Of a DNA stretch of 53,581 bases, positions 44,902 to 53,581 are shown piece by piece; the stretch's first letter is position 1; each line of letters begins with the position of its first letter. The stretch comes from Oscillospiraceae bacterium (lineage in GTDB: Bacteria > Bacillota > Clostridia > Oscillospirales > Oscillospiraceae): contig CACZDN010000018.1 of assembly GCA_902779945.1 (NCBI GenBank), positions 1 through 53,581 of the forward strand, in the 5' to 3' direction. The position numbers and the translations under genes are program-made. The notes beneath the pieces are model-generated. The model had not been told where the DNA came from, searched no databases, and worked only from the letters and a program-made list of their open reading frames with translations.

Positions 44902-45042
44902 GGCAACACCGCACAATCCGCCTTCGGCGCCTCCTGGAAAATTAGCGCTCTGATTTTGTCACTTTTTCTTGCAATACACAAAGTATTCCTGCAAAAAACT
45001 GCCTTCATCAGAACCCAAATTTTCTCAGGATTCGCTCTCGCC
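44902..45042 (+). repeat. MITE-like repeat GGCAACACC, copy 3
   Basis: This 141-base unit starts GGCAACACCGCACAA and ends GCTCTCGCC; it is the same length as copy 1. It fills most of the gap between the convergent PepSY and exonuclease genes. Confidence 0.78.
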
Positions 45043-45097
45043 GGCACGTTTTTCGTGCTCCGTATCCTGACGCTGCCGGGCGGGCAGGCCCCGCGCG

Positions 45098-46072
45098 TCA
45101 CTGGCCTCTCCTGCGGCCATGGCCGCGGCTGCGCCTTCTCGACTGCGCGGCCTTGGTCTTGTAGAAGGAGAGCATGTCCTCATCCGCCTCATAGACCAGG
45201 CGGTTGGCAAGCCAGGTGTTCTCATCCTTGTCCTTGCGGAATTTTGCGCGCACGAGATAGCTGCCGTGCTCCGGGCAGGAATAGATGTTCATATAGCGCT
45301 GGTCGCCCTGATTGACCCATTTGAGCGCCGTCATCTCCGTCCCGCAGGCGGGGCAGCGCAGCACGCGCATCCGCTCGTCGGCGAAAGCATCGGCCTTGCT
45401 GTCAAAGCCGTCAAAGCTGTCGTGGCACAGCGCCTCGGGCCCGTCGGATTCCGCGGGAGCCTTGTAGTTCGGCATACGGGAGGCGAGGATACCGGCCGCC
45501 TCGTCATACATGCGCAGCCCCTCGCCCATGTCGAGACGGCTTGCGACAATGGCGGTGTTGTAGGCGTCTCCCAGCGCGTCATGGGCGACGCGGGTCTGCT
45601 CAATCTCAAAGTGCTCCATAGCGCTGGCGAGGGACTTCTGATTCTTGTCGCCTCCGGTCTGCAGGTTGTAGATGAGCTGGAGGTTGATCCACCCCGCGAT
45701 CCAGTCCCAGTCCAGATCGTGGATGATGATGTTCTGCTCCAGGATACGCTGGTCGTCACAGCCCCAGGTGATGAAGGTGACGTCCTCGCCGCAGAACTCG
45801 CGGAATTTGTCCAGCGCGTCCGGGAAGGAGAGCCCGTGGGACAGCCGCTCCTTGTCGAAGCCGGTGATCTTCTTTACCTTATAATGCATACGGCGGAAGT
45901 ACACGGGCTTGACGTCGACGGTGAACTCCTCGCCGGGGCGCATGTCCTCCGTGAGCCTGACCGCGCCGATTTCAATAATTTCGCCGCCGAGATGGATCGG
46001 CAGCTTGTTGAATACGGAGGATTTGGAACTCATCGCCTGATTCCATTCCAGATCCACCACCACATAGTTCAT
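45098..46072 (-). CDS. DEDDh 3'-5' exonuclease with C-terminal zinc-ribbon-like tail
   Basis: This 324-residue protein has a DnaQ-like exonuclease fold. The acidic motifs are YVVVDLEWNQ (Exo I), TFITWGCDDQRIL (Exo II) and RVAHDALGDAYNTA (Exo III). The tail has two cysteine pairs or triads, LRCPACGTEM and YSCPEHG, suggesting a zinc ribbon, and an arginine-rich end RRRSRGHGRRRG that could bind nucleic acid. It resembles KapD-type/ERI-1-like exonucleases. The biological substrate is unknown. Confidence 0.85.
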   Translation of the reverse strand: MNYVVVDLEWNQAMSSKSSVFNKLPIHLGGEIIEIGAVRLTEDMRPGEEFTVDVKPVYFRRMHYKVKKITGFDKERLSHGLSFPDALDKFREFCGEDVTFITWGCDDQRILEQNIIIHDLDWDWIAGWINLQLIYNLQTGGDKNQKSLASAMEHFEIEQTRVAHDALGDAYNTAIVASRLDMGEGLRMYDEAAGILASRMPNYKAPAESDGPEALCHDSFDGFDSKADAFADERMRVLRCPACGTEMTALKWVNQGDQRYMNIYSCPEHGSYLVRAKFRKDKDENTWLANRLVYEADEDMLSFYKTKAAQSRRRSRGHGRRRGQ

Positions 46073-46156
46073 AGCAATAATCCTTTGTCTAAAAAATAAG
46101 CTTTATTATTATAGCATATCTTTTTCCGGTGTGCACTACTTTTTTATAAGAATTTC

Positions 46157-46185
46157 TTTCGCTCCGCTCCGTTTTGTGATATACT
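46157..46185 (+). promoter_or_regulatory. Predicted murF promoter
   Basis: TATACT (46180-46185) preceded by TG is an extended -10. TTTCGC (46157-46162) is a weak -35 at 17 bases. It lies 26 bases before the murF start, and the region is shared with the divergent exonuclease gene. Confidence 0.5.
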
Positions 46186-46211
46186 GTGGGGCGACAGAGG
46201 AGTTGGTCAAC

Positions 46212-47567
46212 ATGAAAACTTTGACAATCAGAGATATCTGCACGCTCTGCGGGGGGAAACTGACCGGCTGCGGGGATGAAACGCTGCCTGCAGGCCGGGC
46301 TGTGGTCGACAGCCGGGAGGTCCGGGAGGGCGATCTCTTCGTCGCCTATCGCGGCGAGAAGACGGACGGTCACCTCTATATCCGGACCGCCTTTGAAAAG
46401 GGCGCGGTCTGCGCGCTGGCGCAGTACCGGCCGGAGGATGCGGCGGGCCCGGTCATTCTTGTCCCGGACGTACAGCGCGCCCTGGAGGAGATCTGTGCCG
46501 CCTACCGCCACACGCTCGACATCCCCGTCGTCGGCGTCACGGGCAGCGTCGGCAAGACGACGGCGAAGGAGATGATCGCGGCCGTCCTGTCCCGGCGCCT
46601 GCGCGTGTGGAAGACGGAGGGCAACCACAACAACCTGATCGGCGTCCCCATGACGGTCTCCGGCATTGAGAAGGAGCATGAGGCCGCGGTCGTGGAGATG
46701 GGCATTTCAAACTTCGGCGAGATGACGGCGCTCGCCGGGATCGCAAGGCCGACGGTCGCGGTCTTCACCGTGATCGGCAGGGCGCACCTGGAATTCTTGC
46801 ACGACCTTGAGGGCGTCTTCCGCGCGAAGACGGAGATGCTGGACTTTCTGCCGGAGGACGGCGTCGTCATCTGCAACGGGGACGACGCGATGCTCGCAAA
46901 GCTGCGCTGCTCCCGGCGCGTCCTGCGCTTCGGCACCGGGGAAAACTGCGAGGTCCGCGCAAGCAGGATCGAGCTGCTGCCGGAGGGCCGCACCCGCTGC
47001 CGCATCGACTACGACGGCCGTGTGGTCCGGGCGGACATCCCGGCCTTCGGGCGCCAGATGGTCTATGCCGCGCTGGAGGGGGCCGCGGTCGGATTTGTCC
47101 TGGGGCTCACGGACAGGGAGATCGAGGAGGGCATTGCCGACTTTGCCACCGTCGGCAGGCGCAACGCCGTCACGAACACCGGCAGCGTCACCCTGATCGA
47201 CGACTGCTATAACGCCAATCCCGAGTCCATGCGCTGCGCGGTGGACTCTCTTGTCAGACTGGACGGCAGGCGTGTCTGCGTACTCGCGGATATGCTGGAG
47301 CTGGGCCCGGATTCGCCGCGGCTCCACCGGGAGCTCGGCGCGTACTGCCGGGAGCAGGGCGTGGACCTTGTCGTCGCCTGCGGCCCGCACGGCAGGCTGA
47401 TCGCCGAGGGCGCGGGGGACATCGGGCGGTGGTTCCCCGATAAGCAGGCGCTCATCGAAGCGCTGCCGTCCGTCCTGAAGCGCGGCGACAACGTGCTTGT
47501 CAAAGCCTCGCTCGGCATGAAAATGGGCGAGACGGCGGACGCGATCAAGGAGCTGAAACTGCCATGA
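46212..47567 (+). CDS. murF: UDP-N-acetylmuramoyl-tripeptide--D-alanyl-D-alanine ligase
   Basis: This 451-residue Mur ligase adds D-Ala-D-Ala to UDP-MurNAc-tripeptide in the cytoplasm. It has an N-terminal substrate domain (DSREVREGDLFVAYRGEKTDGH), P-loop GVTGSVGKTTAKE, EGNHNNLIGVP, and a late NANPESMR. ATG 46212 follows GAGGAG; the longer frame begins upstream of the promoter. It overlaps the HAD gene by four bases. It is separate from the division and cell-wall cluster. Confidence 0.95.
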   Translation: MKTLTIRDICTLCGGKLTGCGDETLPAGRAVVDSREVREGDLFVAYRGEKTDGHLYIRTAFEKGAVCALAQYRPEDAAGPVILVPDVQRALEEICAAYRHTLDIPVVGVTGSVGKTTAKEMIAAVLSRRLRVWKTEGNHNNLIGVPMTVSGIEKEHEAAVVEMGISNFGEMTALAGIARPTVAVFTVIGRAHLEFLHDLEGVFRAKTEMLDFLPEDGVVICNGDDAMLAKLRCSRRVLRFGTGENCEVRASRIELLPEGRTRCRIDYDGRVVRADIPAFGRQMVYAALEGAAVGFVLGLTDREIEEGIADFATVGRRNAVTNTGSVTLIDDCYNANPESMRCAVDSLVRLDGRRVCVLADMLELGPDSPRLHRELGAYCREQGVDLVVACGPHGRLIAEGAGDIGRWFPDKQALIEALPSVLKRGDNVLVKASLGMKMGETADAIKELKLP

Positions 47568-48277
47568 AAACAGAACAGAGAGACACAAGGCCGATCATCC
47601 TCCTCGATCTCGACAACACGATCCTCGACTTCAACACCGCGGAGCGCAGCGCACTCGGCCGCGCCTTCGCGGAGCTGGGCCTGCCCTTCGACGCAGAGAT
47701 CGCGGCGCGCTACAACCGGATCAACATCCAGCACTGGGAAATGCTGGAGGACGGCCTGCTCACGCGCGAGGAGGTCCTGGTAAAGCGCTTTGAGGCCCTG
47801 TTCGGCGCCCTCGGCATCGAGGGGGACGCGGACCGGACGCAGGCGCTGTATGAGAGTATGCTTGCCGAGGGGCACTGGTTCATGCCCGGGGCGGAGGCAA
47901 TGCTCGAAGCGCTCAGCCGGGATTGCCGCCTCTTCATCTGCTCCAACGGCAGCCAGCGCGTGCAGGACGGGCGGATCGCGAGCGCCGGGATCGCGCATTA
48001 TTTTGAGAGGATCTTCATTTCGGAGCACATGGGCTGCAACAAGCCGGACGCGCGCTATTTCGAGCTCTGCTTTGCCGCAATCCCGGATTTTGACCGGTCG
48101 CGCGCCATCCTCCTGGGCGACAGCCTGAGCTCCGACATCCGCGGCGGCAGGAACGCGGGGATACGCACCTGCTGGTATAACCCCGGGAAAAAGCCGAATC
48201 CCGGCCCCGTCTTTCCGGATGACGAGATCGAGACGCTTGCGGAGTTTGAACCCCTGCTTCGCCGCGTATTCGGATAA
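47564..48277 (+). CDS. HAD-family hydrolase, YjjG-like
   Basis: This 237-residue haloacid dehalogenase phosphatase has motif I LLDLDNTILDF, a helical cap, motif II in FICSNGS and motif III/IV in ILLGDSLSSDIRGGRNAG. The YjjG/noncanonical pyrimidine nucleotide phosphatase subgroup is the best fit. It overlaps murF by four bases; any functional link to cell-wall synthesis is unclear. Confidence 0.88.
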   Translation: MKTEQRDTRPIILLDLDNTILDFNTAERSALGRAFAELGLPFDAEIAARYNRINIQHWEMLEDGLLTREEVLVKRFEALFGALGIEGDADRTQALYESMLAEGHWFMPGAEAMLEALSRDCRLFICSNGSQRVQDGRIASAGIAHYFERIFISEHMGCNKPDARYFELCFAAIPDFDRSRAILLGDSLSSDIRGGRNAGIRTCWYNPGKKPNPGPVFPDDEIETLAEFEPLLRRVFG

Positions 48278-48327
48278 AAAGCACAAAAACGGGGCGTCCT
48301 TTTTGGCGTTTTGGCCCCTTGCTTTTT
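48276..48327 (+). terminator. Likely terminator after the HAD gene
   Basis: AAAAAGC (48276-48282) pairs with GCTTTTT (48321-48327), and GGGGC (48291-48295) pairs with GCCCC (48314-48318). The loop is long, so it is a weaker structure. Confidence 0.5.
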
Positions 48328-48346
48328 AGCTTTCAAATGTTATAAT
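48319..48346 (+). promoter_or_regulatory. Predicted promoter of the tandem mgtC genes
   Basis: TTGCTT (48319-48324) and the consensus TATAAT (48341-48346) are spaced by 16 bases, with an extended TG. The -35 overlaps the end of the HAD terminator. Confidence 0.65.
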
Positions 48347-48360
48347 TTTTTCAAATAATT

Positions 48361-48389
48361 ACGGAGCGTTGATCAGTTCGACGCTCCGT
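48361..48389 (+). promoter_or_regulatory. Leader hairpin before mgtC
   Basis: ACGGAGCGT (48361-48369) and ACGCTCCGT (48381-48389) form a perfect 9-bp stem with an 11-base loop. It lies in the 5' leader right after the promoter, a place where MgtC genes are often controlled; the leader is too short to be a known Mg riboswitch. Confidence 0.55.
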
Positions 48390-48412
48390 CTGTCTTATCC
48401 GGGGGGATGAAT

Positions 48413-49138
48413 ATGGACGGAACCTTTCAGCTTTTTCGTGAGCTGAACTTTTTCTCCATGATCATGCGCATCGTCCTGGCCATGGCGATGGGGGGCGTGA
48501 TCGGCCTGGAGCGCGAACGCAAGGGCAGGGCCGCGGGCTTTCGCACCTATATGCTGGTGGCGCTCGGCGCGGCCGTGACCATGATCGTGAGCCAGTATCT
48601 CGACATCATGCTTGACACCTTCATGGCGGACGCACTGAAGACCATGGGCAACCGGACGGACGTGGTGCGCCTCGGCACGCAGGTCATCAGCGGCACGGGC
48701 TTTCTCGCCGCCGGCACCATCCTCGTCACTGGCAAGCAGGAGGTCAAGGGCCTGACCACGGCGGCGGGCCTCTGGGCCTCGGCCTGCATGGGGCTTGCCT
48801 GCGGCGCGGGCTTTCTGGAATGCGTGGTGGTGAGCTTTTTGCTGGTCGTGCTCTGTATGCGCGTTTTTCCCAGCATCCAGACGGCTATCCTCAACCGCTC
48901 GCGCAACATGATCGTCTACCTGGAGACGGAGAACATCCTCCAGCTCTCCAGCGTCGTCAACTTCATCAAGCGCGAGGACATCCGCGTCTACTCGCTGGAG
49001 ATCGACAAGGAGACGCCCGAGCATATGGACTGCATCGCCGCCATCATCGACATGCGCCTGCCGATGCAGCTCTATCACGCGGAGCTGATCGCGGCGCTCT
49101 CGACGCTCGACGGCGTCATCAGCATCGACGAGGTCTGA
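48413..49138 (+). CDS. MgtC/SapB family membrane protein (first copy)
   Basis: This 241-residue protein has five hydrophobic segments (about 17-150) and a C-terminal cytoplasmic ACT-like domain. The MgtC core has GGVIGLERERKGRAAGFRTYMLV, TQVISGTGFLAAGTIL and KGLTTAAGLWASACMGLACG. MgtC-like proteins are linked to low-Mg survival and acid/phosphate homeostasis. ATG 48413 is six bases after GGGGGG; ATG 48407 is too close. It is followed after 17 bases by a paralogue. Confidence 0.9.
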   Translation: MDGTFQLFRELNFFSMIMRIVLAMAMGGVIGLERERKGRAAGFRTYMLVALGAAVTMIVSQYLDIMLDTFMADALKTMGNRTDVVRLGTQVISGTGFLAAGTILVTGKQEVKGLTTAAGLWASACMGLACGAGFLECVVVSFLLVVLCMRVFPSIQTAILNRSRNMIVYLETENILQLSSVVNFIKREDIRVYSLEIDKETPEHMDCIAAIIDMRLPMQLYHAELIAALSTLDGVISIDEV

Positions 49139-49155
49139 GAGGGGAGGGACGGATC

Positions 49156-49851
49156 ATGCTGCATTGCTTTGACTTTTTCCGCCAGATGAATCTGCTCGCC
49201 ATCACCTGCCGCCTGGTGCTGGCGGTACTCTGCGGCGGCATCATCGGCATCGAGCGCGAGATAAAGCGCAGGCCCGCGGGCTTTCGCACGCACATCCTGA
49301 TCTGCATGGGTGCGGCCATTACCATTCTCACAAACCTCTATCTTTATCAGGTCATGCACCTGTATACCGATATTGCGCGTATGGGCGCGCAGGTCATCGC
49401 GGGCGTCAGCTTCGTGGGCGCGGGCACGATCATCGTCACGCGCCGCCAGCACATCAAGGGCCTGACCACGGCGGCGGGCCTCTGGACCGCCGCGATCATC
49501 GGTCTTGCCTGCGGGGCGGGCTATGCCGAGTGCGCCATCTTCGCAACGCTGCTCGTCATGCTGTCCGAGGTCTTCCTGGTCCGGCTGGAGTACCGCCTGG
49601 TCGACCGAACCAGTGACGTGAACATCTACATCGAGTATACCAAGCCCTCCACGATCCAGCTTCTGGTACGTATCCTGCGCACGCTCAAGGTCCCGATGAA
49701 CGACATGGAGGTCAACCGCATCGCAGAGGGCGACGACAAATTCCGCTACAGCGCCATCCTCACCATCCGCGTCAGCCAGCAGACCATGGAAAAGGAGATC
49801 ATTGAGCGCTTCGACAAGATCGAAGACGTGCTCACGGTCGAAGAGCTGTAA
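49156..49851 (+). CDS. MgtC/SapB family membrane protein (second copy)
   Basis: This 231-residue paralogue of the preceding gene shares CGGIIGIEREIKRRPAGFRTHILICMGAA, AQVIAGVSFVGAGTIIVT and HIKGLTTAAGLWTAAIIGLACGAGY. It also has a C-terminal ACT-like part. ATG 49156 follows GGGAGGG. The pair looks like a tandem duplication that has diverged; they might act as a heteromer. Confidence 0.9.
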   Translation: MLHCFDFFRQMNLLAITCRLVLAVLCGGIIGIEREIKRRPAGFRTHILICMGAAITILTNLYLYQVMHLYTDIARMGAQVIAGVSFVGAGTIIVTRRQHIKGLTTAAGLWTAAIIGLACGAGYAECAIFATLLVMLSEVFLVRLEYRLVDRTSDVNIYIEYTKPSTIQLLVRILRTLKVPMNDMEVNRIAEGDDKFRYSAILTIRVSQQTMEKEIIERFDKIEDVLTVEEL

Positions 49852-49874
49852 GACAGAAACAGCGCTTCCCCCAT

Positions 49875-49947
49875 GTCATCCTGAACAAGACAAAGGATCT
49901 CTCCCGTTGAGCTTGCGGGGGAGATCCTTCGCTTTGCTCATGGTGAC
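49875..49947. repeat. GTCATCCTGAG palindrome, copy 4
   Basis: GTCATCCTGA at the left, TGGTGAC at the right, and arms AAGGATCTCTCCC and GGGGGAGATCCTT inside make a stable hairpin. It lies between the mgtC pair and the cotJ operon and may end the mgtC message. Confidence 0.78.
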
Positions 49948-50014
49948 CTTTTTTCACATCCGGGCGGTCTGTGAATAGAATGGATCGAAGCGAACGCTTC
50001 AAGGAGGAATTCAT

Positions 50015-50461
50015 TTGAGCTGCAACAAACCGGATCAATCCTATCGCGACGGCAGTCTGCCCGGGGCATTTGCGCCGCTGGCCGTGTCCTACGTGCCGAT
50101 GCAGGTCTCGTCCGCGCCGAGCTATGAGGCGTCGGAGGCGCTGGCGCGGGGGACGCTGTTCCCCGGGCTGGACCTGCCGTTTATGAATATCGTCAACGAG
50201 AAGGCGCCGGATGTGCCGACGGCGGAGCTGATGGCGATCGACTTCGTCACGGACGAACTGGAGCTGTACCTCGACACCCATGCCGGAGACCGGGAAGCCT
50301 TCGCGCTCTATCAGAGCTTCCTCGCCCTGCGCAGGGAGGCGCGCGAGCGCTATACCGCGCGCTACGGCCCCGTCACTCAGTGCGACCAGCTCGGCGGGGA
50401 GAGCTTCACCTGGCTCAGAGACCCGTGGCCCTGGGAGTTTCAGACAAGGAGGGAGCGCTGA
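50015..50461 (+). CDS. cotJA-cotJB: Fused spore coat proteins CotJA-CotJB
   Basis: This 148-residue protein joins two spore coat proteins usually encoded separately. Residues ~20-70 are CotJA-like (LAVSYVPMQ, EALARGTLFPGLDLPF). Residues ~73-148 are CotJB-like (LMAIDFVTDELELYLDTHAGDREAF, ARYGPVTQ, FTWLRDPWPWE). The frame is continuous, and there is no stop or new SD at the joint. TTG at 50015 is eight bases after AAGGAGG. The proteins are part of the inner coat made in the mother cell and act with CotJC, whose gene starts next. No clear SigE or SigK promoter was found. Confidence 0.85.
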   Translation: MSCNKPDQSYRDGSLPGAFAPLAVSYVPMQVSSAPSYEASEALARGTLFPGLDLPFMNIVNEKAPDVPTAELMAIDFVTDELELYLDTHAGDREAFALYQSFLALRREARERYTARYGPVTQCDQLGGESFTWLRDPWPWEFQTRRER

Positions 50462-50463
50462 AG

Positions 50464-50697
50464 ATGTTTGTCTATGAAAAGAAGCTGCAATATCCCGTCC
50501 GCATCCGCAACACGAACCCCGCCCTGGCGAAGTTCATTATCAGCCAGTACGGCGGCCCGGACGGCGAGCTCGGCGCATCCCTGCGCTATCTGAGTCAGCG
50601 CTATTCCATGCCGTACCCCGAGCTCAAGGGGCTTTTGACCGACATCGGTACGGAAGCATCTAAAATGCTCCGCTTGCCCTCAGAACTGGCAAAATAG
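50464..50697 (+). pseudogene. cotJC: cotJC 5' part, interrupted by a mobile element
   Basis: The frame starts with MFVYEKKLQYPVRI and follows the CotJC manganese-catalase-like family to LKGLLTDIGTE (codon 64, 50653-50655). It then switches to an unrelated tail (ASKMLRLPSELAK, stop at 50697). The intact family protein is about 190-220 residues, and the part lost begins with the metal-binding helices (family ...TEE.AH.E...). The rest is expected at the far end of the element beyond this window. If the element can be excised, cotJC is restored; if not, this is a disrupted gene. It begins three bases after cotJA-cotJB. Confidence 0.88.
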
Positions 50698-52292
50698 CCT
50701 TTTGAAACGGTGTAACGCCAACGCATTGGGAGCAAATTCAGGAATACATCGATCGTATCATCATCTACAATGACCATTTTATCCAGAAGCATACTGTAAA
50801 ACGCTTCATCGTAAACAGCGCCGTCCAGGATCTCCTGAATCGCTTTCCCAATATCGAAGATCAATTGTTGCTGTTTTTCTTTGATCTCTTTTTGTTTGTC
50901 CAAATTTACGATCGCGTTCTGTATAGATGTCAAGTCTTTATCATACCGCGCTCTGGCTTCATAGAACTCATCTTTGGAAATAGCAGAAGAAGTATAAAGA
51001 TCGATCAGTTTTTTCTGCTTTTCTTGAACGCCCAGCATTTGCTCGCGAAGGTCGCTGACGCTTGCTGAACCGTTGTCCGATGCAATGATGGACTGGACGA
51101 CAGAAACCAGGTTTTTCTTTACCTCGCTGCGATTGTAGTTGAGTTCATTGGTGACAAGGGACATGATGTGTTCCGCTGCCTCGTTACGAATACTGCGTGA
51201 GGTGCAGCCAACGGTCTCGCCGGTCTGATCCTTGTGCTCGCTTCCATATTTGGCGGCATTATAACAGCGCCACGACTTATACCGAGTGCCGTCCTGACGG
51301 GTCTTGTATCGCGAAACATAGCTTGCGCCGCAGCGCCCGCATTTGATTTTACCCGAAAATGGATAGCGGTTGCTATGCTTCGCTTTTCCTTCCGGGGAGA
51401 GAGATTTAGCGTCGAGAATTCGATTTGCCTCATCAAACAGTTCGCGGGAAATGATGGGCGCATGATGGTTTTTTAGGATAACAAATTCTTCCTGGCCGCG
51501 GTTGTATTTCTTCTCGTGTGAAAGAAAATCCGGCGTATAAGTTTTCTTTTGAACAAGGTCGCCACAGTATTTTTCGTTCCGAATAATTCTCAGAATAACG
51601 GTGTTGCTCCATTTTTTCACACGCATAGGGTGGATCCCTTCTTCTTTGAGCTCACGGGCTATAACGTGGGTGCCTTTATTCTCAGTGACAAATTTTTGGA
51701 AGATGAGTCTGACTATTTTGGCGCCTTCTTCATTGATGGTCATTTGTCCATCTTTGACGTCATACCCGAGCATGCTTCGCCCAAAGACGACTCCCTGCTC
51801 CATTTGCCTTTTCTGGCCCCATTTTACGCGTTCCGAAGTCTTCCGGCTTTCCTCCTGCGCAATGGATGCCATAATCGCCAGTCGAAGCTCTGCATCGCCA
51901 TCTAACGTGTTGATACCGTCGTTCATAAAGATGACGCCAATACCTATACGCTTTAACTCCCTTGTATAGAAGATGCTATCCAGCGTGTTGCGTGCAAAGC
52001 GTGAGATTTCCTTTGTAATGATCAGATCGAAGGCGCCTTGCCTTGCACAATCGATCATACGGTTAAACTCTTTGCGCTTCTTGGTGTTTGTACCCGAGAG
52101 GCCTTCGTCTGCAAAAATACCAAACAACTCCCAGTCGGGGTGATGTTCAATGAACTGCCGGAAGTAGCGCTGTTGGCTTTCAAATGAATTAGCCTGGTCA
52201 TCCTTATCCGTTGATACTCTGCAGTACGCGGCCACACGTTTTCTCGTTTCAATGATTTTTCGGTCCTGATTCATCTGCTCGTATCTGTTCAT
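50601..52292 (-). CDS. Large serine recombinase (site-specific integrase/excisionase)
   Basis: This 563-residue protein has an N-terminal resolvase domain with the catalytic serine S27 in AAYCRVSTDKDDQ. The block GIFADEGLSGTNTKKRKEFNRM and ITKEISRFARNTLD follow. A recombinase domain comes next, then a zinc ribbon (CGRCGASYVSRYK ... GETVGC) and a long coiled coil (about 400-500). It integrates or removes the element at cotJC. Its last ~17 codons (below about 50656) lie in cotJC sequence, antisense, so the C-terminus changes on excision. GAGGAG precedes the ATG at 52292. Confidence 0.93.
   Translation of the reverse strand: MNRYEQMNQDRKIIETRKRVAAYCRVSTDKDDQANSFESQQRYFRQFIEHHPDWELFGIFADEGLSGTNTKKRKEFNRMIDCARQGAFDLIITKEISRFARNTLDSIFYTRELKRIGIGVIFMNDGINTLDGDAELRLAIMASIAQEESRKTSERVKWGQKRQMEQGVVFGRSMLGYDVKDGQMTINEEGAKIVRLIFQKFVTENKGTHVIARELKEEGIHPMRVKKWSNTVILRIIRNEKYCGDLVQKKTYTPDFLSHEKKYNRGQEEFVILKNHHAPIISRELFDEANRILDAKSLSPEGKAKHSNRYPFSGKIKCGRCGASYVSRYKTRQDGTRYKSWRCYNAAKYGSEHKDQTGETVGCTSRSIRNEAAEHIMSLVTNELNYNRSEVKKNLVSVVQSIIASDNGSASVSDLREQMLGVQEKQKKLIDLYTSSAISKDEFYEARARYDKDLTSIQNAIVNLDKQKEIKEKQQQLIFDIGKAIQEILDGAVYDEAFYSMLLDKMVIVDDDTIDVFLNLLPMRWRYTVSKGYFASSEGKRSILDASVPMSVKSPLSSGYGME
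50641..50660. other. Left attachment-site region (cotJC/element junction)
   Basis: The cotJC similarity ends near GACATCGGTACGGA. Typical cotJC would continue with codons for Glu-Leu/Phe-Ala-His, and here it continues with GCATCTAAAATG. The crossover therefore lies at about 50646-50657. Large serine recombinases use a two-base core and cut in short imperfect palindromes; the exact core cannot be set without the right end. Confidence 0.65.
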
Positions 52293-52395
52293 ATCACATA
52301 CTCCTCGCTGTCTTACCTTAACCTCTTATGATGGATAATCAGATTATAATCAACTATAAAACAGGCGTTCGGTTTTCAACACTCAAAACATGAAG

Positions 52396-52602
52396 CTATA
52401 TTGGCTTATTACCGAAGGATGCTTCGCGATACTGGCGCTCGAGTCTCTCAATACACAGGTCACACTGCGAATCTGTGAGCAGATTCCTCTTTTTTAATGA
52501 ATATATCACGGCCTTCTGAAAAATCAGAAAAAAATCCGGGTTGTCTTTCATAGAAAGCTGCGGAATTTGATCACCGACATATGAATAGTCCTTATGGGAC
52601 AA
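52396..52602 (-). CDS. Small protein next to the recombinase, function unknown
   Basis: This 68-residue protein contains FFLIFQKAVIYSLKKRNLLTDSQCDLCIERLERQ, a helical motif seen in small proteins near ICE recombinases. I know no assigned function. It starts with TTG at 52602, eight bases after GGAGGTG on the - strand, a good ribosome site. It lies upstream of the recombinase by about 100 bases, so it may be cotranscribed. A role as a recombination directionality factor is possible but has no direct support. Confidence 0.6.
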   Translation of the reverse strand: MSHKDYSYVGDQIPQLSMKDNPDFFLIFQKAVIYSLKKRNLLTDSQCDLCIERLERQYREASFGNKPI

Positions 52603-52868
52603 TGGGCAACACCTCCGTGTTTATCAAGCTATGTTTGTAAGCTTGACTGATATACGTAGAAGCTTTATCCATCCCAAAAAGGGAGCCCATTGTTCTTTAT
52701 CCCAAGATAGAAGGCTGTTGAGAAAAAAAGATATGTAGTTTATTTAATTATTGTTCTGCGGTGGGCCTAAATAGATCGTATGTAATTTGCATTATGGATA
52801 ATGATTAAATTACAAATCGGACTGTTTTTACCCTCATCACCAACATGCAAAGACAAGGTGAAAAGAGT

Positions 52869-52906
52869 GATAGCAAAGAAATCATAAAGTGTAATTCTTT
52901 GCTATC
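52869..52906. other. Strong hairpin in a gene-free part of the element
   Basis: GATAGCAAAGAA (52869-52880) and TTCTTTGCTATC (52895-52906) form a perfect 12-bp stem with a 14-base loop. The 699 bases from 52603 to 53301 contain no convincing gene. The hairpin may be a terminator or a structured site used in transfer or regulation. Confidence 0.5.
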
Positions 52907-53009
52907 CTCATTACACCATTTTACGACAAGAAACGAAACATAAAGAGCAAATTATTTTGATTTCACCTCCGCCTGTGGCTGCAGGTCCATAGATTTTCAT
53001 CTCCCCGCC

Positions 53010-53160
53010 TTCTTTATGGCCGGGCCGCGAGTTACGGAAGTCTCATTGTCCCCGGAGAGGTCATCGCGGAGGGCAGGTGCCGTCTGCCCATTTTTGCCGT
53101 CTTCTCGCTTGCCGGACGAAAGGAGTGGCCGCTGTCAGATCCGGGACTGTGGAGGTGAGT
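53010..53160. other. GC-rich island inside the AT-rich element
   Basis: About 150 bases are much richer in G+C than the flanking element. They contain a terminator-like GGGCAG(N7)CTGCCC followed by ATTTTTG (53073-53097). The short reading frames here (53016-53210, 53077-53286) do not look like real proteins. It could be a leader of a resistance or regulatory gene, a structured RNA, or a remnant. No function can be assigned. Confidence 0.35.
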
Positions 53161-53262
53161 TCATATTTGATTGGCAAGGTTCAGGCGCATGGGAGGTCTT
53201 CATTAAATAAAGAGCCGAGGAGATATGACTTTTTCTTAAATAGAAGGAATAATTTTATCGAC

Positions 53263-53297
53263 AAAATCCGCCATTATGAAGAATAATGACGGATTTT
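53263..53297. terminator. Terminator-like hairpin behind the HTH gene
   Basis: AAAATCCGCCATTAT (53263-53277) pairs with ATAATGACGGATTTT (53283-53297) with one mismatch and a five-base loop. A and T runs lie at both ends. It starts four bases past the stop of the - strand HTH gene. Confidence 0.65.
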
Positions 53298-53301
53298 AGA
53301 A

Positions 53302-53493
53302 CTATATGGGAAATTTGGATATGTTCTGCGCTATATGTATCAGTATATACTGCCGGAGATCCTCATCCAACTGACCGTCCACAATGCTGTTTCGATCTAT
53401 AAGAGGAGCATAGAGCTCCAAAATGATCTCCAGAGCATCGTGATTGCCGGCGATGGCGGCAGTAAGGGCAATCCTGAAATCCTCACGGTTCAT
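53302..53493 (-). CDS. HTH_16-like regulatory protein of conjugative transposons
   Basis: This 63-residue protein reads MNREDFRIALTAAIAGNHD, then ALEIILELYAPLIDRNSIVDGQ and DEDLRQYILIHIAQNISKFP. The pattern fits the helix-turn-helix (HTH_16) proteins next to sigma-like factors in Tn916 and Tn1549 elements. The ATG at 53493 follows AGGAGG by nine bases and overlaps the stop of the upstream gene by 11 bases, so translation is coupled. The longer frame (to 53556) lies in the sigma-like gene and was rejected. Confidence 0.82.
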   Translation of the reverse strand: MNREDFRIALTAAIAGNHDALEIILELYAPLIDRNSIVDGQLDEDLRQYILIHIAQNISKFPI

Positions 53494-53581
53494 GAGTAGC
53501 AGCCTCCTCTTCCTTAAGGATCTCGCGGAGCTTTTTAATTGCCTGGTATTTTGCATTATAGAAATCTTTTACTTGAAAATG
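53483..53581 (-). CDS. C-terminal end of a sigma-70-like factor (partial)
   Basis: The frame enters from the right edge and reads FYNAKYQAIKKLREILKEEE near its end, with the stop at 53483-53485. The pattern YNARYRAIKKLRELLK is the end of the region-4-like helix-turn-helix of Tn916 ORF7-type sigma factors. It overlaps the HTH_16-like gene by 11 bases. Only 32 codons are visible. Confidence 0.65.
   Translation of the reverse strand, partial: HFQVKDFYNAKYQAIKKLREILKEEEAATHEP

Follow-up and report, generated by a model that had tools for sequence, protein, structure and literature searches.

Is a spore coat gene that has been cut in two by a mobile element lost, or is it put back together when the cell makes a spore? 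The question is raised by the right end of a 53581-nucleotide (nt) stretch of DNA from an Oscillospiraceae bacterium. This stretch, the window of the present analysis, is the entire contig C18 (CACZDN010000018.1 of assembly GCA_902779945.1), in a genome of 2.87 Mb and 39 contigs that is 85.79% complete. Here cotJC, the gene for a mother-cell coat protein, is interrupted by an element with a large serine recombinase at its edge. A sequence-only reading of the window had likened this arrangement to the skin elements of sigK, and the evidence below makes programmed excision of a skin-like element from cotJC in the mother cell, by way of a cassette under sigma-E, the likely explanation. The split locus comprises the following features.

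50015–50461, forward strand: single open reading frame (ORF) of 148 amino acids (aa) with a TTG start, carrying the CotJA and CotJB domains (PF11007 at residues 21–56, PF12652 at 71–141).
50464–50646, forward strand: 5' part of cotJC (PF05067), codons 1–61, up to the crossover.
50601–52292, reverse strand, facing cotJC: large serine recombinase of 563 aa with Resolvase, Recombinase and zinc-ribbon domains and a YCRVST motif containing Ser27.
50647–50648, unstranded: putative GG crossover dinucleotide, the centre of the attachment site attL, placed at the centre of the inverted repeat of the joined element ends.
50649–50671, unstranded: element-side half of the attP inverted repeat, from the sequence of the joined ends.
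50649–53581, unstranded: left part of the element, up to the contig end; its right end is C30:1–571.

The reading frame from 50464 matches PF05067 over residues 1–64 (profile positions 1–65 of 284) and diverges afterwards, as had been read. The crossover, however, is most simply placed at the GG in codon 62, because the attP inverted repeat is centred there; a recombination core common to both ends would explain why codons 62–64 resemble cotJC. G+C drops from 0.616 (45001–50646) to 0.444 on the element side (50649–53581), which bears out the proposed AT-richer element. The recombinase exceeds the cut-off for all three domains (Resolvase 108.4, Recombinase 86.3 and zinc-ribbon 43.4 bits) and also matches the PHROG 95 integrase; we take Ser27 to be its catalytic serine. 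It faces cotJC from the element edge, but it is not confined to the element, since its final 14 codons run antisense within cotJC (43 nt plus the stop codon).

A PF05067 search of the same genome returned two pieces, C18:50464–50655 (profile 1–65) and C30:563–940 (profile 60–198), both above the cut-off (71 bits for the 5' part and 102.7 bits for the 3' part). The second element end and the 3' part of cotJC occupy C30:1–985; this contig starts within the element, cotJC resumes at 572, and yebC follows. The missing remainder had been predicted to resume in frame with Glu and His codons next to a repeat of the core, and the piece on C30 indeed starts with GTEELGH and carries the core at the far element end. 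When the two parts are joined at the GG (attR centre, C30:572–573), an open frame for a 198-aa CotJC results. The window's attP forms an inverted repeat around the GG at 19 of 22 positions and attB at 9, compared with a mean of 5.7 and a maximum of 12 in shuffles (n = 2000). Under the same scoring, 16 other elements inserted at this site (site B) reached 9–21 of 22 for attP and 5–11 for attB, and attP lay above all 500 shuffles in 11 of the 16. Judged from its sequence, the locus has these features of a skin-type element: a mother-cell sporulation gene is interrupted and both of its parts are restorable in frame, and there are a serine recombinase and matching attachment sites.

The same split recurs across relatives. 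Within the genus, PF05067 finds a match in 64 of 102 genomes; the match is full-length in 47, in at least two pieces in 14 and a single partial piece in 3 (hand count); uninterrupted relatives, which had been suggested for comparison, are therefore common. The 14 include G036, with a short insertion and not a large element, and G080, with an assembly fork. In the family, 318 of 400 genomes have a cotJC match and 115 have none better than 1e-46; at least two partial matches are found in 89 of these, the window's genome included, and one in 26 (hand count; the 114 other than the window's genome were counted a second time). Positions were sought for 80 of the 88 other two-piece genomes, and these 80 span 38 genera. 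Among the matches listed, the pieces meet at profile positions of about 32, 64 and 150, and in 39 loci that were read fully or partly the cuts fall at codons 32–34, 61–65 and 134–137 of the window's CotJC, with G483 near codon 50. These three main sites are presumably metal-ligand motifs. A serine-recombinase ORF of at least 379 aa is kept in all 39 loci, and two (G357 and G117) are shorter than 450 aa. The split is also found inside the one-contig genomes G198 and G463. In contrast, the control gene yebC, matched in 103 of 120 family genomes, is split in one, at contig ends. IMG/VR yielded 15 loci with cotJC pieces, two of which are both ends of one 44-kb provirus with both cotJC parts readable.

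Some genes are cut twice, with three cotJC pieces in G088, G210, G242 and G307 and, among the matches listed, three matches of which two are visible in G129, G249 and G489. In G088 (L028, L029) one serine-recombinase element lies at codon ~33 and a different one at codon ~64, leaving the gene in three pieces. In G087, cotJC pieces lie at C1:141152–141379 (forward) and 188098–188508 (reverse), and in G242 at C1:129685–129852 (forward) and 71980–72309 (reverse); in both genomes the last piece, which starts at profile position 147, is on the opposite strand and tens of kb off, suggesting inversion or misassembly at the third site. G036 (L038, C53:41000–44500, site A, reverse strand) carries an otherwise whole cotJC with two ~45-nt tandem units containing in-frame stops. 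The unit start resembles the left end of an IMG/VR site-A provirus (L051), and the insertion may be a scar, a remnant or an assembly product.

Three further features bear on the control of the recombinase and of the cotJ operon.

52396–52602, reverse strand: small ORF of 68 aa, candidate recombination directionality factor (RDF) by position and size, predicted two-helix hairpin.
52626–52655, reverse strand: sigma-E-type promoter of the small ORF by consensus motif, GTATATC, 15 nt, CATAGCTT.
49973–49983, forward strand: -10-like element of the cotJ operon, GAATAGAATGG, by the family consensus CATAG(A/G)ATGG.

The small protein, modelled as a hairpin with a mean predicted local distance difference test score of 88.5, has no match in Pfam, NCBIfam or PHROGs; its position and size make it a candidate RDF. 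The cassette of small ORF and recombinase is tied to cotJC. A scan of a species-genome collection with 20 aligned site-B recombinases confirmed at least 564 relatives, of which the best 80 were kept. A cotJC fragment flanks 73 of these 80 and is absent from the flank of the other 7, and 67 of the 80 have the small ORF upstream (E up to 1). The small-ORF family occurs in 20 of 27 site-B loci versus 0 of 13 loci at other sites, and in none of 29 other large serine recombinase loci of the genus among the matches fetched (33 loci were scored, of which one had no recombinase match and three were cotJC loci; three of the remaining 29 are cut short upstream). In the 7 cassettes not beside cotJC, no other split spore gene was recognised by eye in the flank. 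One cassette of small ORF, CATA and recombinase, in Intestinibacillus massiliensis (L135, 3810–5626), has no cotJC alongside in the stretch available.

Upstream of the small ORF, 15 of 20 loci have CATA 27–31 nt ahead of the start, versus 33 of 279 background upstream regions, and 14 of 20 have CATAnnnT, versus 9 of 279. The small-ORF anchoring was chosen after looking at the sequences, so the Fisher p-value obtained with it is not blind, and the test window was 4 nt wider than that of the background, although all 15 positives fall at 27–31 nt. In a named set scored afterwards, 62 cotJC loci have the small ORF; of these, 49 carry CATA at 24–36 nt and 42 carry CATAnnnT. Of the 29 other recombinases of the genus, 3 show the sign when it is defined loosely. 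The promoter sequences are mutually related, so that all these counts overstate independence. After 70 of 87 upstream regions were aligned on CATA and near-duplicates were removed, 47 were kept. At positions not used in the alignment, these showed a -35 signal, namely A at -18 in 40 (shuffle mean 14.0, maximum 25 in 2000 shuffles) and ATA at -20 to -18 in 21 (mean 1.1, maximum 5); moreover, the spacer holds ACAA in 21 (mean 3.1, maximum 11). We take ATA-N14-CATA to be the sigma-E pattern, and (G/T)(G/T)ACAA presumably resembles B. subtilis SpoIIID sites. The host genome has SpoIIID and SpoIVA genes. Two earlier scans were set aside: an initial automatic rule for where the operon starts overlooked the small ORF at many loci (CATA in 12/27 at site B, 2/6 at A, 1/7 at C and 1/1 at D), and a first score resembling a position weight matrix for sigma-E gave p < 0.05 in only 4 of 15 upstream regions.

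By its motifs, the cotJ operon itself would have another type of promoter. Its upstream regions align on (C/A)ATAnnnT in 36 of 37 loci, with the consensus given above; of these 36, 29 have C at -18 and 17 have A at -19, which we assume to be the sigma-K pattern. For 17 of the 54 loci tried, no operon start was used: CotJA was not recognised by its motif in 15, one had no start, and that of G357 was dubious. A sigma-E-type cassette and a sigma-K-type cotJ promoter would place excision first and the coat gene later, the order that the mechanism needs.

Both parts of cotJC are under strong purifying selection. In eight species pairs with site-B elements (three among G032, G033 and G088), omega, calculated from proportions by the Nei–Gojobori method, was 0–0.10 for the 5' half, 0–0.13 for the 3' half and 0.12–0.38 for the recombinase. 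The corresponding values in 28 pairs of eight intact cotJC genes were 0.03–0.14 and 0.04–0.24 for the two halves. Since a promoterless 3' half would be expected to decay, the constrained 3' halves speak against permanent separation. Together with the recombinase clade tied to cotJC and the promoter motifs of the cassette, this selection lends further support to the skin-like reading.

We therefore consider the following mechanism, in which the excision itself, the sigma factors used and the role of the small protein are presumed; the split with its restorable frame, the attachment sites, the cassette, the promoter motifs, the recurrence and the selection are read from sequence. A mobile element with a large serine recombinase would have inserted at codon 62 of cotJC, a coat gene of the manganese-catalase family. 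The two-gene cassette at its edge, the 68-aa protein (probably the RDF) followed by the recombinase, would be transcribed in the mother cell from the sigma-E-type promoter, in many relatives also with a SpoIIID-like site. Recombination between attL and attR would then excise the element and restore the cotJC frame, and the later sigma-K-type cotJ promoter would express intact CotJC. The spore's own chromosome would retain the element, so that nothing would be lost to the lineage.

Several observations weigh against this mechanism. The 26 one-piece genomes of the 115 may reflect assembly loss, what counts as two pieces may in some cases be two copies of the gene, each truncated at a contig end (the pieces in G356 overlap and differ), and internal stops occur in some listed split loci, e.g. 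G107, G120, G175 and G298. In the window's genome the middle of the element is not assembled, being missing or on other contigs. The promoters are assigned by consensus motifs, and the window's spacer has GTCAAG and no clear SpoIIID site. At sites A, C and D together, where sigma-E-type promoters are at most putative, the first promoter scan found CATA in only 4 of 14 recombinases. CATA also precedes all 5 small-ORF cassettes for which no neighbouring cotJC was seen, and the promoter may thus be a mark of the cassette and not of its target. Insertions that are recent and independent could give the appearance of constraint on the split halves; against this, the cargo genes of G033 and G088 are in the same order, G032 has its recombinase, nucleotidyltransferase and RNase-Z-like gene in place as in those two, and synonymous divergence (dS) of the recombinase is 0.88–1.14 in the 7 of 8 pairs for which it was computable. 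Finally, no excised junction or circle was seen in the public viral contigs searched. We infer sporulation control from gene identity, selection, promoter sequence and the precedent of the C. difficile skin element.

An ordinary mobile element that uses conserved cotJC codons as attB, leaves a dispensable gene broken and is excised at random or at transfer is an unlikely alternative. Serine integrases often target conserved genes, and cotJC is not known to be essential in B. subtilis. The site-A element of G093 is phage-like, with terminase, portal and tail proteins, and recombinase and cotJC distances are only moderately correlated (Mantel r 0.32, p 6e-4, 23 loci), indicating that much lateral movement also occurs. 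Such an element would not be expected to leave promoter-severed 3' halves as constrained as intact genes, however, nor does it fit with elements of 3.0–3.5 kb that still keep the recombinase and attachment sites, with a cassette under a mother-cell-type promoter, or with mapped split genomes spread over 38 genera.

Excision might also restore cotJC independently of sporulation: some vegetative cells would lose the element, and populations would be mixed; this is improbable. In G080 the contig carrying the 5' part stops precisely at the core and shares a 99-base overlap with a contig on which the gene continues intact, as an assembly fork between the two states would do, and a contig of G006 ends at the same point. 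Yet no third G080 contig with the element side is listed, a strain mixture would give the same picture, and the promoter motifs speak for the mother cell. An assembly or binning artefact, to which the separate contigs of the window and the cotJC 3' part might point, can practically be dismissed, since the same split with in-frame ends lies within single contigs of many genomes, including G198 and G463, and the attP inverted repeat of G198 is above all shuffles.

Within the preferred mechanism of programmed excision, the recombinase tail deserves separate mention. In the window (tail SVPMSVKSPLSSGYGME) and in 7 of the 21 further site-B loci that were tested, the recombinase ORF crosses attL and ends in antisense cotJC. 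A mechanical count, which can slip frame, covered the 58 named loci where the recombinase and the 5' part of cotJC face each other; it puts the end of the recombinase within cotJC in 39, and 27 of these 39 have a recognisable tail of the window's kind (counted by eye). In the excised form, the window's recombinase is computed to read into the other element end and to gain a longer, different tail (563 to 618 aa). It is conceivable, if rather doubtful, that integration itself sets the state of the recombinase, with host cotJC supplying a C-terminal piece that switches between integrated and excised forms.

Site-B elements measure between 3.05 kb (G265) and ~39 kb (G042). Their cargo varies: G033 carries DJ-1/PfpI, an RNase-Z-like protein, a nucleotidyltransferase and VanZ, G265 a pyrimidine-nucleoside phosphorylase and G191 an endonuclease. 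With regard to an integrative conjugative element, which would be marked by relaxase and conjugation genes, only the following protein was recognised in the visible element ends (the middle being unassembled).

53302–53556, reverse strand: HTH_16 protein of the element (PF12645).

In G032, G033 and G088, TIGR02651 matches no gene other than the RNase-Z-like one inside the element (L023, L024, L029). RNase Z as an 'addiction' gene was considered, and this essential-cargo claim was dropped because 4 of 10 genomes searched have no TIGR02651 match at 1e-10 and no match passes the curated cut-off. Likewise, an 18-nt attP string sought as a sign of the excised form matched one public viral contig (L205) in a coding region, with no element similarity at the thresholds used, and was put down to chance.

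As in the C. difficile skin element in sigK (recombinase CD1231, RDF CD1234; PMC5025042, available part), a large serine recombinase lies within a split sporulation gene together with a small protein of similar length, an RDF of 72 aa there and a candidate of 68 aa here. According to the same part of that source, CD1234 is controlled by sigma-E and SpoIIID (SpoIIID consensus KRTAACARK), with transcription starting 14 bp before the start codon, to be compared with CATA 27–31 nt before the small ORF here. Unlike in skin, the target is a coat gene and not a sigma factor, and the small ORF usually stands directly before the recombinase, whereas CD1231 has its own sigma-A promoter. SP-beta in spsM of B. 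subtilis, and vfbin in spoVFB, vrin in spoVR and yin in yabG of C. botulinum (PMC4191935, PMC10747680, in the text available), are likewise prophages or prophage-like elements in sporulation genes, with a recombinase and with the gene restored on excision, and the G093 element resembles them in being phage-like. They differ in that several recombinase groups here use different codons of one gene. The gin element in gerE of Bacillus cereus (28.6 kb; three recombinases; GirX/GirC; a small excision factor of 42 aa; PMC5595907, available part) is similarly non-phage, with a serine recombinase and a small excision factor (a candidate here), whereas elements here go down to 3.0 kb with one recombinase. 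The split sporulation genes named in the available text of these papers are sigK, spsM, spoVFB, spoVR, gerE and yabG, and 'cotJ' is not mentioned in the main text of PMC4191935, PMC10747680 or PMC5595907 as far as available. A cotJC homologue adjoins the phi027 prophage in C. difficile (PMC11222575, available part). In the titles and abstract openings of the open-access literature, with most subscription journals and bioRxiv outside that scope, no account of an interrupted cotJC was found. The element is best read as a new, unusually widespread relative of skin elements, set apart because one gene is hit at several codons by several recombinase groups, by elements of ~3 kb and with a possible tail switch.

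The recurrence of the split, the recombinase and a spore-stage-type promoter in many gut relatives suggests that cotJC is probably rejoined only during spore formation. If so, a large group of gut Clostridia would carry out programmed mother-cell gene repair as a routine, with one coat gene hit at three main codons, sometimes twice per gene, by elements trimmed to ~3 kb. If the tail switch also held, cotJC would provide part of the very enzyme that restores it. The many natural replicates allow one to ask what keeps such elements in place, and direct tests are possible in named isolates that carry a split cotJC, for example Flavonifractor sp. An10 (L163). In annotation, meanwhile, cotJC will often look broken.

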